DNA of 12,656 bases from Xanthobacteraceae bacterium (lineage in GTDB: Bacteria; Pseudomonadota; Alphaproteobacteria; Rhizobiales; Xanthobacteraceae). The notes under the pieces were generated by a model that was not told the origin of the DNA, did not search any database, and saw only the letters and a list, made by a program, of their open reading frames with translations. The translations under genes were made by a program, and so were the position numbers. The DNA is taken from the NCBI GenBank assembly GCA_030044035.1, contig JASHWN010000372.1, forward strand, positions 1-12,656. Reading direction: 5' to 3'. Positions 3,873 to 12,059 of the stretch are shown here, in pieces (the stretch's first letter is position 1; every line of letters begins with the position of its first letter).

Positions 3873-5057
3873 TTACTTCTTCGCCTCGGCCGGTGCCGGC
3901 GCGTTCGCACCCGGCGCCTGTTGCTGCTGCGCTTGCGCCGCGGTCCTTGCCGCGATCGCTTGTTTGATGAAGGCGACCCAGGGCTCGGCGCGTTGTTCGG
4001 CGGTGGCGCGGGCGGTGGCGTCGAGCTGGCTGACGAAGACGTCGAGGTCGATATCGGTGTCGCCGGCGGCCTTGGCGATCAGGTGCCATTTCGCCGCTTC
4101 GATCGGGTCCGCCTTGGTGCCGACGCCGTGAGCGAGGATGAGCGCCAGCCGGTCCTGCGCGATCGGATTGCCTTTGAGCGCGGCCTTGCGGAACAGCTCG
4201 GTGGCGAGCGGCTGGTTGCGCTCGACGCCGTCGCCGTTGAATAGCGCGATGCCGTACTCGACCTCGGCGTCGGTCTGGTCGCCGAGCGCGGCGAGCGCGA
4301 ACAGGTGCACCGCCTCCTTCATGTCGCGCGGCACGCCGCGGCCGTCCTTGTAGAGCGTGCCGAGCGCGTACTGCGCCTGCGGATTGCCGCCGTCGGCGGC
4401 CTGCCGGAGGAGTTCGGCGGCGCGGGGAAAATCGCGCGGAAACAATTCGCCCTCGATGTAGAGCAGGGCGAGATCGTAGGCGGCGATCGGGTGGCCGAGC
4501 TTGGCCGCGGCGGCGAGCCACTTGGCGCTGTCCGCCCGGTTGCGCGGCTCGCCGCGGCCTTGGAGATCGAACATCGCCAGCGCGAACATGGCGTTGGCGT
4601 CGCCGCGCGCCGCGGCGAGCCGGTACCAGGACGCGGCCTTGGCGTCGTCCTGCGGGATGCCTAGCCCGTTGGCATAAAGCTCGCCGAGGAGCGTCATCGA
4701 CTTCGCATCGTTCGTGTTGGCGGCGCGCCCCGTGGCGAGCGCAAACGCCGTGATGTAGTAGCCGCGCTGGAACGCGCCGAAGGCGAGGTCGGGCGCCGGG
4801 CCTTTTTGTGCGGGCGGTGCCGCTTGCGCCGGCTGCGGGGCGGGCGCGGGGGCGGGCGCGGGTTTTTTCGCTGGCGCGGGTTTCGCCGCCGCCACATGGC
4901 GGGCGGGCGCATTTTGGGCGCTTGCCACGGCAACAAATCCAAGGCTCAGAATTGCGATTCCGGTCATTCCCGCGAAAGCGGGAATCCAGCGCATGAAAGA
5001 ACTGGGTGCCCGCTTTCGCGGGGACGAGCGGAAGCCGCACGTTCGTGCGAGCGGCAT
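3873..5057 (-). CDS. Exported Sel1-repeat (TPR-like) protein with a repeat-derived insert in its signal region
   Basis: From ATG 5057 the protein has 394 residues. After a hydrophobic stretch (GIAILSLGFVAVASA, AxA cleavage site) comes a Pro/Ala/Lys-rich linker, then about six Sel1-like repeats of about 36 residues (for example LGELYANGLGIPQDDAKAASWY and YALGTLYKDGRGVPRDMKEAV), and a Gln/Ala/Pro-rich C-terminus. Sel1 repeats form alpha-solenoids that bind partner proteins; the partner here is unknown. The start at 5057 overlaps the preceding stop as ATGA, a sign of translational coupling. Residues about 9-32 are encoded by a 72-bp interspersed repeat. In-frame ATGs at 4994 and 4967 lie within that repeat and are alternative starts, the former giving MRWIPAFAGMTG before the hydrophobic core. 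Start choice is moderately sure; the family is very sure. Confidence 0.85.
   Translation of the reverse strand: MPLARTCGFRSSPRKRAPSSFMRWIPAFAGMTGIAILSLGFVAVASAQNAPARHVAAAKPAPAKKPAPAPAPAPQPAQAAPPAQKGPAPDLAFGAFQRGYYITAFALATGRAANTNDAKSMTLLGELYANGLGIPQDDAKAASWYRLAAARGDANAMFALAMFDLQGRGEPRNRADSAKWLAAAAKLGHPIAAYDLALLYIEGELFPRDFPRAAELLRQAADGGNPQAQYALGTLYKDGRGVPRDMKEAVHLFALAALGDQTDAEVEYGIALFNGDGVERNQPLATELFRKAALKGNPIAQDRLALILAHGVGTKADPIEAAKWHLIAKAAGDTDIDLDVFVSQLDATARATAEQRAEPWVAFIKQAIAARTAAQAQQQQAPGANAPAPAEAKK
4960..5031 (-). repeat. 72-bp bipartite palindromic element (type D) inside the Sel1 gene
   Basis: Read on the plus strand it has hairpin ATTCCCGCGAAAGCGGGAAT (4966-4985), then CCAG, a 12-nt spacer, CTGG, and hairpin CCCGCTTTCGCGGG (about 5009-5022). 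Outer ends are CCGGTC and GAGCGG. It is 72 nt, exactly 24 codons, and the Sel1 frame is open through it, giving the peptide SSPRKRAPSS...WIPAFAGMT. The same architecture recurs at 11899-12024. Confidence 0.85.
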
Positions 5058-5698
5058 CAGCCGGGCGGGGCCGCCAGGCTCGCGCCGGCCGCAGCCAAAA
5101 TCCGTTCCGCTTCGCCTTCCTCGCTCCATATCCACTCACCGAGCGCGACGAAATCGGCGCCGGCTTGCGCCAGCGGCCGAATCTGATCGGCACTGGCGGC
5201 GTAGCCGATGCAGGGCGGTTGGAAAAGCTCCGCCCACCAGGTCAGGCGCTCCTCTATAGCCGCAAACGGCGGGTTTTTGCCGCCGCGATGTTCGCCGCTG
5301 CGGCCGCCGCCCTCGGGTTCCCCGAACATGACGTAGTCGGCGTCAGCTTCGCCGGCGAGCATGGCATCATCACGGCTGCGCAGGCCGCCGGCGCCGGCGA
5401 TGCGGTCGGGTTTTAGCGCCGGCAGGGCAGCGCGCAGCGCTGCGATGCCGGTCAAATGGGCGCCGTCGGCCCCGGCGCGGGCCACGAGTTCCGGCCGGCC
5501 GTCGACCAGCAGCGCAATATCGCGGCGCTGCACTACGGCCGCCACGCTTTTGATGCGGTTGATCAAGGTGCGCTCGTCGGCATCGCCAAGCCGCAGCAGC
5601 ACCGCCGCGATATCGGCCGCCGGCAGCGCGCGCTCCAGCGCCGGCACGAACGCCGCGGGGTCGGCGAGCAGGGGGGTGAAGAGGTAGAGGCGGGGCAT
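5057..5698 (-). CDS. ThiE/TenI-family thiamine-phosphate-synthase-like protein (divergent)
   Basis: The protein has 213 residues and the length and beta/alpha pattern of a TIM barrel of the ThiE/TenI family: YLFTP near the start, ALLVDGRPELVARAGADGAHLT in the middle, then GAGGLRSRDDAMLAGEADADYVMFG and a C-terminal GADFVALGEWIW. True ThiE joins the HMP-pyrophosphate and thiazole phosphate. Its usual phosphate-binding G-P-x-F-x-T-x-T-K loop is here replaced by FGEPEGGGRSGE, so thiamine-phosphate synthesis is doubtful and no gene symbol is given. It lies 40 nt behind fba and its TGA overlaps the Sel1 start. GAGG, 8 nt before the ATG, sits in the 3' arm of a hairpin (5705-5732) that could limit translation. 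Confidence 0.75.
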   Translation of the reverse strand: MPRLYLFTPLLADPAAFVPALERALPAADIAAVLLRLGDADERTLINRIKSVAAVVQRRDIALLVDGRPELVARAGADGAHLTGIAALRAALPALKPDRIAGAGGLRSRDDAMLAGEADADYVMFGEPEGGGRSGEHRGGKNPPFAAIEERLTWWAELFQPPCIGYAASADQIRPLAQAGADFVALGEWIWSEEGEAERILAAAGASLAAPPG

Positions 5699-9230: not shown

Positions 9231-11345
9231 TCAGCGCGCGTGCTTGAGCGCCGCCTCGGCCACCGCCTCGGGCGTGATGCCGAACGCCTTGTACAGATCC
9301 TTATACGGCGCGCTGGCGCCGAACCCGGTCATGCCGACGAAAACGCCGGCCGAGCCGATGATGGCGTCCCAGCCTTGGCGGATGCCGGCCTCGACCGCGA
9401 CGTTAACCCTGGCCTGGCCGATGATCGCGGCGCGTTTGTCGGCCGGCGCTGCCGCAAAGAGTTCGAAGCACGGCACCGAAACCACGCGCGCCGAAATTTT
9501 TTGCTCGGCGAGCAGCCTCTTGGCTGCGACCGCGATGGCGACCTCCGAGCCGGTGGCGAACAACGAAACCCTCACCCTACCCTCCCCCGCTTGCGGGGGA
9601 GGGTAGGGTGAGGGCTCAGCGGCGACCAGCTCGTAGGCGCCGAGCGCGCAGCGATTGTGCTCGTCGAAGCCTTGGCGCAGCTGCGGGGTGTTCTGCCGGG
9701 TCAGCGCCAGCACGCTCGGGCCGCTGCGGCTTTGCAACGCGAGCTGCCAGCATTCGGCGGTCTCGACAGGATCGCACGGCCGAAACACTTTCAGATTCGG
9801 GATGGCGCGCAACGCGGCGAGATGCTCGACCGGCTGATGCGTCGGGCCGTCTTCGCCCAGCCCGATCGAATCGTGGGTCATCACGTGAACGACACGCAGA
9901 CCCATCAGCGCCGCCAGGCGAATCGCCGGCCGGCAATAATCCGAGAACACCAGGAACGTGCCCGAATACGGCATGATCCCGCCATGCAGCGCCATGCCGT
10001 TCATGGCGGCGGCCATGGCGTGCTCGCGCACGCCGTAATGAATGAAGCGGCCGGCGTAATCGGCGGCGCTCAGCACGTGCATGGCCTTGGTGCGGGTATT
10101 GTTGGAGCCGGTGAGATCGGCCGAACCGCCGACCATTTCGGGCAGCGCCGCGGTGAGCCCTTCGAGCGCGAATTCCGACGCCGCGCGGGTGGCGACCTCC
10201 TTGGGCGCCTGCGCGAGCTTCTGCTTCAATTCGTGGACCGCCGCGGCGAGTTTCTTCTCCGGCAGCTCGCCGTTGCTGCGGCGCTCGAATTCGGCGCGTT
10301 TTTCGGCCGGCAAAGCGGCGAGCCGTGCCTGCCAGGCCAAGCGAGCCGGCCGGCCGCGCTCGCCGGCGGCGCGCCATTGCGCGCGGATCGCCGGCGGAAT
10401 CTCGAAGGCCGGCGCGCTCCAGCCGAGTTTTTGCCGTGCCGCGGCGACCTCTTCGGCGCCGAGCGCCGCGCCGTGCGCCTTTTCGGTGCCGCCCTTGTTG
10501 GGCGCACCGAAGCCGATCGTGGTGCGGCAGGCGATCAGCGAGGGGCGCTCGGATTTTTTGGCCGCTTCGAGCGCCGCGGCGATCGCCGCCGGATCGTGGC
10601 CGTCGATGCGGCTTGCCGCCCAGCCGGCCGATTCGAAGCGCTTGACCTGATCGACGGAGTCGGTGAGCGCCAGCGGGCCGTCGATCGAGATGCCGTTGTC
10701 GTCGAACAGCACGATGAGCTTTTTCAGCTTCAAGTGCCCGGCGAGCGCGATCGCCTCCTGGCTGATGCCCTCCATCAGATCGCCGTCGGAGGCGAGCACA
10801 TAGGTGAAGTGATCGACGAGTGCGCCGCCGAACTCGGCGGCGAGATGACGCTCGGCGATCGCCATGCCGACCGCATTGGCGAGCCCTTGGCCGAGCGGAC
10901 CCGTGGTCGTCTCGACACCCGGCGTGTGGCCGTGTTCGGGATGGCCGGGCGTGAGCGAGCCCAGTTGGCGGAAGCGCTTGATCTCCTCGATCGTCATCTT
11001 CTCGTAGCCGAGCAGATGCAGCACCGCGTAGAGCAGCATCGAGCCGTGGCCGGCGGAGAGCACGAAGCGGTCGCGGTCCGGCCATTGCGGATCGGCCGGA
11101 TCGAATTTCAGAAAGCGTGTGAACAAGACGGTGGCGATATCGGCCGCGCCCATCGGCAGGCCGGGATGGCCGGATTTGGCTTGCTCGACCGCGTCCATCG
11201 CCAGCGCGCGGATGGCGTTGGCCATGTGGTCGTGTTCTCCCGCGCGCGCGCTCAAATCCGGCGCGGCGGCCGCGGCTGCAGCGACGCGAGAGGGTTGGGC
11301 GAGTGTTTGGGCGCTCGCCGCGACAATGCGGTCCGGCTTGATCAT
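9231..11345 (-). CDS. tkt: Transketolase with an in-frame palindromic-repeat insertion
   Basis: From ATG 11345 the protein has 704 residues, longer than the usual 660-670. Motifs: SGHPGLPMG (H60), ThDP/Mg site SDGDLMEG (186-193) with N217 in [10 protein letters not shown], catalytic glutamate E441 in [14 protein letters not shown], and [16 protein letters not shown] (490-504). Reaction: two-carbon ketol transfer between sugar phosphates in the pentose phosphate and Calvin pathways. Two features explain the extra length. An Ala-rich N-terminal extension of about 40 residues precedes [13 protein letters not shown], where the family normally begins. About 15-16 residues at 577-592 ([15 protein letters not shown]) are encoded by a palindromic repeat. 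A GTG at 11357 is an alternative start; neither has a clear Shine-Dalgarno. It is the first gene of the minus-strand cluster. Confidence 0.95.
9569..9614 (-). repeat. 46-nt perfect palindrome (type E) inside tkt
   Basis: 22 nt on each side (9569-9590 and 9593-9614) are exact reverse complements around loop TT. The core is CCTCCCCCGC/GCGGGGGAGG with outer CCCTCACCC/GGGTGAGGG. It is fully open in the tkt frame, reading as a Pro-rich then Gly/Arg-rich peptide. The position falls between AYELVAAE and [11 protein letters not shown], a loop where other transketolases have only a few residues. Confidence 0.9.
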
Positions 11346-11408
11346 GGGACTGGCCACGCGCGGCTTTTTTGAAGCGAACGGCCGCGGTCACGCGAAGACT
11401 AAAGGGCA

Positions 11409-11898: not shown

Positions 11899-12024
11899 CC
11901 GCTCGTCCCCGCGAGGGGTCCCCATCGCGCTCGCGCGATGGGGTGCCCCGTTGCGGGGACCCAGCGGGTTTGCGGTCAGGGGTGAGAACGCGATCTGGAT
12001 TCCCGCTTGTGCGGGAATGAGCGG
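11899..12024 (+). repeat. Type-D bipartite element enlarged by a nested palindrome, before zapA
   Basis: The ends are CCGCTC (11899) and GAGCGG (12024). Left hairpin: GTCCCCGC (11905-11912) pairs with GCGGGGAC (11953-11960). Inside its loop GGGG (11915-11918) pairs with CCCC (11946-11949), enclosing a perfect 11-bp stem CCCCATCGCGC/GCGCGATGGGG (11920-11943). Right hairpin: ATTCCCGC (11999-12006) pairs with GCGGGAAT (12011-12018) around TTGT. CCCAG (11960-11964) and CTGG (11995-11998) flank the spacer as in the 4960-5031 copy. It ends 35 nt before the zapA start. Confidence 0.85.
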
Positions 12025-12059
12025 AATTGGCTGAACCGATTTACACCAGCGGAGCTGCG

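Follow-up and report, generated by a model that had tools for sequence, protein, structure and literature searches.

A palindromic repeat of 72 nt that resembles a dimer of the CGTC repeats has probably inserted into the leader of a Sel1-repeat gene, close to the start of the gene and before the hydrophobic Sec core of the predicted signal peptide; judged from sequence comparison, we give this reading a probability of about 0.7. The window, i.e. the whole stretch of 12,656 nucleotides that was analysed, is contig C295 of the Xanthobacteraceae genome G000, which is 68% complete. On its minus strand lies a run of genes for a transketolase, a GAPDH-like protein, a PGK-like protein, a fructose-bisphosphate aldolase, a thiE-type protein and the Sel1-repeat protein. 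Pfam matches of the window translations back the names of the transketolase, the aldolase, thiE and Sel1, and the names glyceraldehyde-phosphate dehydrogenase and phosphoglycerate kinase come from reading the translations alone.

The leader of Sel1 and its insert

The thiE-type gene (5057..5698, minus strand; thiamine monophosphate synthase family, PF02581, E 5.9e-17) ends with the stop codon TGA at 5059-5057. The gene sel1 (3873..5057, minus strand; PF08238, E 1.8e-43), which encodes a Sel1-repeat protein with a predicted N-terminal signal peptide and is read here from the ATG at 5057, shares one base with this stop (CTGATG); the listed open reading frame that holds sel1 opens further upstream. 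A preliminary description of the window had spoken of an ATGA overlap, which is not what the window reads at this junction but is typical of the larger part of its relatives.

Read from the ATG at 5057-5055 on the minus strand, the protein begins with MPLARTCG, continues with 24 extra residues and then enters a hydrophobic stretch. The extra residues are encoded by a palindromic repeat element (REP dimer; 4960..5031, no strand assigned), which consists of two arms of 30 nt each (4960-4989 and 5002-5031) and a 12-nt loop (4990-5001) and which provides 24 stop-free codons in frame with sel1. It separates the thiE/sel1 overlap from the hydrophobic core of the predicted signal peptide, which together with an AxA site reads IAILSLGFVAVASA (4917..4958, minus strand). 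Removal of 4960-5031 would read MPLARTCG followed directly by LIAILSLGFVAVASA, and in this respect the sequence is as previously described, with 24 residues inserted.

With the insert, the hydrophobic peak starts at residue 34-35, compared to residues 3-20 in nine element-free genomes of the same genus, a set without G009, G012, G014 and G019. Without the 24 codons, or when counted from the ATG that the element has in its loop, the peak starts at residue 10-13, and in the window it then follows the overlap codon by 10-11 residues. The core is therefore placed as in the element-free genomes either by deleting the 24 codons or by starting in the loop. Only the positions of the hydrophobic peak were used in this comparison, as predicted AxA cuts end some leaders too early; in G009, the peak as taken within 75 residues misses the core.

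The palindromic element

The ends of the element can be recognized from its other copies. In an alignment of 28 copies, which includes the window copy and in which one copy (L024) is without the left end, most copies read CCGCTCATTC...GACGAGCGG at their ends, so that the ends coincide with the borders at 4960-5031 that had been proposed from the window. The majority sequence of these copies is CCGCTCATTCCCGCGAAAGCGGGAATCCAG, a variable loop and CTGGGTCCCCGCTTTCGCGGGGACGAGCGG. In its own genome, the element gives 66 BLAST matches at E<=0.001, a number in which a palindrome may count on both strands, and one of its arms matches the window twice, exactly at 4964-4989 and with 2 mismatches at 11995-12020 (0.00 expected). 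A strong hairpin is predicted at the element (81 nt, ssDNA -30.6 kcal/mol, z -6.9, matched by 0 of 200 shuffles), and Rfam gave no match anywhere in the window. Of the initial view that a mobile palindromic element sits in frame in a signal peptide, the dispersed palindrome ahead of the core is borne out, and mobility is presumed.

Several further repeats were seen along the way. A second copy of the element, degenerate and longer in its loop, extends over approximately 11944-12025 in the window, and a copy in G012 lies a short distance upstream of the thiE match. Another type of palindromic repeat, GGCGGATTA, occurs as a 36-nt pair at 1104 and 1804 (1104-1139), and a 34-nt inverted pair at 1780-1864 is of the same GGCGGATTA type.

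Distribution and phylogeny

Two genomes of the same genus, G010 and G018, contain the same insert as G000, at the same offset, in the same orientation and frame, and with a nearly identical loop. The distance from the thiE stop to the ATG in the loop is 65 nt in all three genomes, with no indel in this interval. The underlying DNA survey comprised 103 sel1 loci, one per genome, including 16 of the 20 genomes of the genus; the rest were the best matches of a search in which 377 of the 391 genomes of the family match. Seven loci had no usable sel1 start and were dropped, and in 93 of the remaining 96 thiE is found upstream. An element profile run over these 96 loci detected the element at the thiE/sel1 junction only in G000, G010 and G018, i.e. 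in a single genus. The occurrence of the same 24 residues across distant genera, which had been named beforehand as evidence against an insertion, was thus not observed at these loci.

A tree of the mature domain was built from 126 rows, after 18 of 130 proteins and 4 of 18 genome rows had been set aside for a missing motif or for their length. In this tree, G000 groups with the protein P0002 (100/93), and this pair is joined by G010 together with G018 (99/95) and then by G009 (100/100). Most simply, G000, G010 and G018 would have inherited the insert from one common ancestor, in which a CGTC-like head-to-head dimer entered sel1 a few codons past its start at the overlap with thiE and directly before the hydrophobic core. 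The overlap codon is ATG or GTG in 63 of the 93 loci with thiE, so that the insert has an ancestral start on one side and the core on the other. With a length of 72 nt and no stop codon, it would have kept the reading frame open, and it may have been tolerated as a stop-free, in-frame and basic addition to the least constrained part of the signal peptide.

A clean empty site, in which the linker is joined directly to the core, was not found among the near relatives examined, and the site reading MPLARTCG-LIAIL that had been expected from homologues did not turn up. G009 has the upstream ATG plus a different insert at the same place, with palindromic parts by eye, and the element-free genomes G005 and G006 possess a diverged leader and a CTG instead of the ATG at the overlap. 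The latter two also bear on the earlier consideration that element-free homologues without a start at the overlap would speak against an insertion, since they lack the ATG and thereby partly fit that description. P0002, a metagenome protein known from its protein record, starts with a methionine at an apparently equivalent place. Together with the upstream ATG of G009, this indicates that the ATG is probably older than the insert and was lost in G010 and G018.

Candidate start codons

The codon that overlaps the thiE stop is an ATG in 51 of the 93 loci with thiE, a GTG in 12, a CTG in 9 and a TTG in 1, and 20 loci show another arrangement. The window has a CTG at this place (5058..5060, minus strand), where the ATG or GTG of the 63 loci mentioned above forms an ATGA or GTGA overlap. 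The upstream ATG follows at 5055..5057 (minus strand); it is present also in G009, and in G010 and G018 it is replaced by ATA. As first described, the element itself supplies two in-frame ATG codons, namely a loop ATG (4994-4992; 4992..4994, minus strand), which is conserved in G000, G010 and G018 (MRWIPAFAG...), and an arm ATG (4967-4965; 4965..4967, minus strand), which is an ATG in G018 and a GTG in G010. A further in-frame ATG is located inside thiE (5127..5129, minus strand; offset -70) and could serve as alternative upstream start; G000, G010 and G018 all have such a codon within thiE, at offset -70 or -64.

In G010 and G018, the first ATG past the thiE stop is the loop ATG. With ATA at the position of the upstream ATG, an element-borne start is likely in these two genomes, where the element would most likely supply both the start codon and the n-region; the conserved gene context, the tree and the lost upstream ATG are what makes sel1 informative in this respect. 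The window is compatible with either start. Initiation at the overlap ATG, which coupling to thiE may help, would result in a basic 24-residue addition to the n-region, and initiation at the loop ATG would give a signal peptide of ordinary length, MRWIPAFAGMTGIAILSLGFVAVASA. Of the two outcomes that had been proposed, a long n-region or a replaced start codon, the latter fits G010 and G018 best, and for the window both still apply. A start at the loop ATG is disfavoured by its predicted position in the apical loop of a strong mRNA hairpin, and by eye no Shine-Dalgarno-like sequence precedes it. Compared with two control copies, the loop of the sel1 copy is slightly more conserved; the argument that this proves use of the start was dropped, as two controls are too few. 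The two possibilities can be told apart by their products, as an upstream start would give peptides from MPLARTCGFRSSPRKR and the loop start the N-terminus MRWIPAFAG.

It has also to be considered that translation could begin everywhere at the overlap CTG or at an ATG inside thiE, so that the element merely lengthens the n-region. The overlap CTG is common to G000, G010, G018, G009, G005 and G006, and G006 possesses no ATG, GTG or TTG from the thiE stop to +47; furthermore, some database homologues (P0009, P0016) begin in the stretch inside thiE. However, CTG is a rare start codon, ATG or GTG stands in its place at 63 of 93 loci, and a start inside thiE would produce a very long leader. We regard this alternative as possible rather than likely.

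Is the repeat translated?

A less probable view is that the element is an ordinary intergenic REP, transcribed but not translated, that influences at most mRNA stability or coupling, and that translation of sel1 begins past it or within its last codons. With arms that are stop-free in 11 of 12 reading frames, this repeat can easily give an open frame. Among 33 frames spanning other copies, ten were searched with Pfam, and a family was found in a single one (TctC, at L019), so that in most cases a frame that stays open across a copy does not point to a gene; the other nine long frames fit an intergenic repeat. From the end of the second copy in the window, about 35 nt remain to the ATG (12060) of an open reading frame that may encode a ZapA-like protein. 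By eye, two other shared copies in unannotated DNA are located at gene ends or starts and not inside genes, which would likewise suit an intergenic repeat. It has also been noted that many REPs at the NH2 termini of open reading frames may be extragenic (PMC3733652, as far as the accessible part of its text goes). Against an untranslated repeat stands the lack of an ATG, GTG or TTG that is common to G000, G010 and G018 and lies past the element but before the core ends: such a codon is present as TTG at +110 in G010 and as GTG at +104 in G018, and in G000 not before +131. The arm ATG or GTG at +92, in the last codons of the element, is shared by all three and would still permit such a late start.

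The one spanning frame with a Pfam family also argues for translation. This TctC-like gene of G000 (L019; PF03401, E 2.7e-06, 27.6 bits at a cut-off of 27) has a leader that consists of MTYS, 20 residues from another copy of the element and then VVDVILALILLFVAIWPARA. This frame has a TTG as codon 20 and a GTG as codon 86, and the only ATG, GTG or TTG between these two is an ATG four codons before the element; no such codon lies between element and core, and one CTG is found within the core. As the sole ATG of the leader precedes the element, export of the TctC-like protein seems to require that the repeat is read through. By eye, the leaders of the homologues are short and ordinary in G006 and G017, and their n-regions are long in G007 and G013. 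The leader of the G007 homologue (L201) reads RAERSNPIRHLSLDCFVALLLA, which in our view resembles another repeat-encoded peptide.

Probable recurrent insertions in homologous leaders

More distant homologues of sel1 were taken from the best 120 of 351 and the best 120 of 474 matches, which do not represent a census. Leaders could be scored against the arm peptides, as the sum of both arm scores, for 122 database proteins and 4 genome loci (126 in total), and 8 proteins gave none. Of these leaders, 21 exceeded all of their own 100 shuffles: those of the three genomes, 17 database proteins in which the match has the orientation opposite to that of the window copy, and P0090, which lay above its shuffles by one point and was not counted. 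The 17 leaders, which are known from protein records, share the frame AHSRxSGNP/GSPxSRGR. Some are near-copies of each other, e.g. P0126 of P0073, and P0091 and P0126 pass by small margins. For the second arm, 8 of the 17 show a clear match (32 or more) and about half a weak one. Among the 96 loci checked by DNA, the opposite-orientation form was not found at the junction. The tree includes 16 of the 17; on it, at least 8 changes are required for the opposite-orientation label and one more for the window orientation, be they gains or losses, with P0104 and P0002 left unlabelled as ambiguous. Other leader peptides were noticed by pattern, namely PPPLWGR, LTPPHKGEG and PDQRC, which are presumably repeat-encoded as well. 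Taken from these leader sequences, the leader of sel1 homologues has probably been invaded by repeats more than once.

A hot spot in the proper sense was not claimed, as there is no rate for comparable junctions and repeats are present also in other genes, i.e. in tkt and, by eye, in thiE of G001 and G016. In tkt (9231-11357, minus strand), a perfect 22-nt inverted repeat (9569-9614) is located in frame between the pyrimidine-binding and C-terminal domains. In G001 and G016 (L039, L040), the repeat-like peptides PSPARGGG and PSPARGRG are encoded upstream of sel1, where thiE lies.

The leader of P0002 scores 41 against the element at a shuffle maximum of 51, and a copy in another frame was considered for this protein and rejected, as its leader remains below the best of 100 shuffles; if P0002 is without the element, the tree requires two changes rather than one. 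Two separate insertions at the thiE/sel1 junction, one in G000 and one in the ancestor of G010 and G018, are very improbable, as offset, orientation and frame are identical and the loop is nearly identical in the three genomes, even though the sister of G000 (100/93) shows no visible element and homologous leaders elsewhere have seemingly been invaded repeatedly.

A wider and tentative proposal, which we consider possible rather than likely, is that repeats in this group act as portable cassettes of start codon plus n-region for exported proteins. Arginine-bearing, stop-free arms would be tolerated or favoured between start and Sec core. Members of different repeat families would have entered the leader of one orthologous gene on many occasions, in either orientation, and the element would have become the start site in one lineage. 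Should the readings given above for sel1 and the TctC-like gene be true, short palindromes would serve as raw material from which signal peptides are made, and a leader that contains an HSRxSGNP or WIPAFAG peptide would merit examination and should not be discarded.

Comparison with known repeat systems

A literature search found no paper that unites palindromic repeats, a signal peptide and an in-frame insertion or start codon, with most subscription journals outside its coverage. As short palindromes that are dispersed and often near genes, the copies resemble the GTAG REPs that are associated with RAYT transposases, but no GTAG is found at the element ends in the 28 copies. An association with RAYTs was sought and not found: in the two closest genomes, the stretches around the best Y1_Tnp matches (L120, L121) are free of element copies, and the 68% complete G000 gave no Y1_Tnp match. 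At two further loci (L122, L125), copies lie approximately 1.0 and 0.7 kb from short Y1_Tnp matches. In G010, a copy and a short Y1_Tnp-like match are separated by about 120 nt (G010:C87:12885-12949 and 13073-13180), and a similar match is present at G010:C97.

With the Rickettsia palindromic elements (RPE), the element has in common that palindromic repeats occur in frame in protein genes. Such elements are recognized by an in-frame insert and an empty site; here, the insert is in frame and shared by three genomes, and no clean empty site is available in near relatives. It differs from RPE in its Xanthobacteraceae host, in the repeat itself and in its position in a predicted export signal, and it is known here from DNA and its translations.

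The closest likeness is to the CGTC REPs (BMC Genomics 2013, PMC3733652), the following being based on the accessible part of that publication. Most CGTC repeats were found in alphaproteobacteria and have no flanking transposase; likewise, 6 of 8 Y1_Tnp loci examined here are without the element. CGTC-1 and CGTC-4 of R. conorii correspond to RPE-6 and RPE-4. Head-to-head dimers predominate among CGTC REPs, and inverted paired halves are present in nearly all of the 28 copies, with a central loop of varying length; these copies are the best BLAST matches to a dimer, so that single units are under-sampled. The half-stem of the element is 8 bp long (ATTCCCGC/GCGGGAAT in one half), its 4-nt loop is GAAA and a CCA tail follows. 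This agrees with the CGTC REP loop of 4-5 nt and its CCA tail, as GAAA (GCAA/TTTC on the other strand) and CCA(G) occur in both halves of most copies. The stem of CGTC REPs has a length of 8-9 bp and starts with A-T pairs, which is also true for the left half ATTCCCGC, whereas the right half GTCCCCGC has G-C as first pair and begins with GT and not AT. Different is also the tag, which is GCTC in most of the 28 copies and GGTC on one side of the window copy, and not CGTC, TGTC or CCTC.

Intragenic repeats of the CGTC type, N-terminal ones included, have already been published; over half of the inserts within open reading frames are dimers or groups that encode 20-30 residues, and it was cautioned that N-terminal cases may reflect a wrong start annotation (PMC3733652, accessible part). 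The wording "signal peptide" was not found in that part of the text. Compared to the CGTC inserts described there, the insert in sel1 stands out by its location in a predicted signal peptide and by the possible supply of a start codon.
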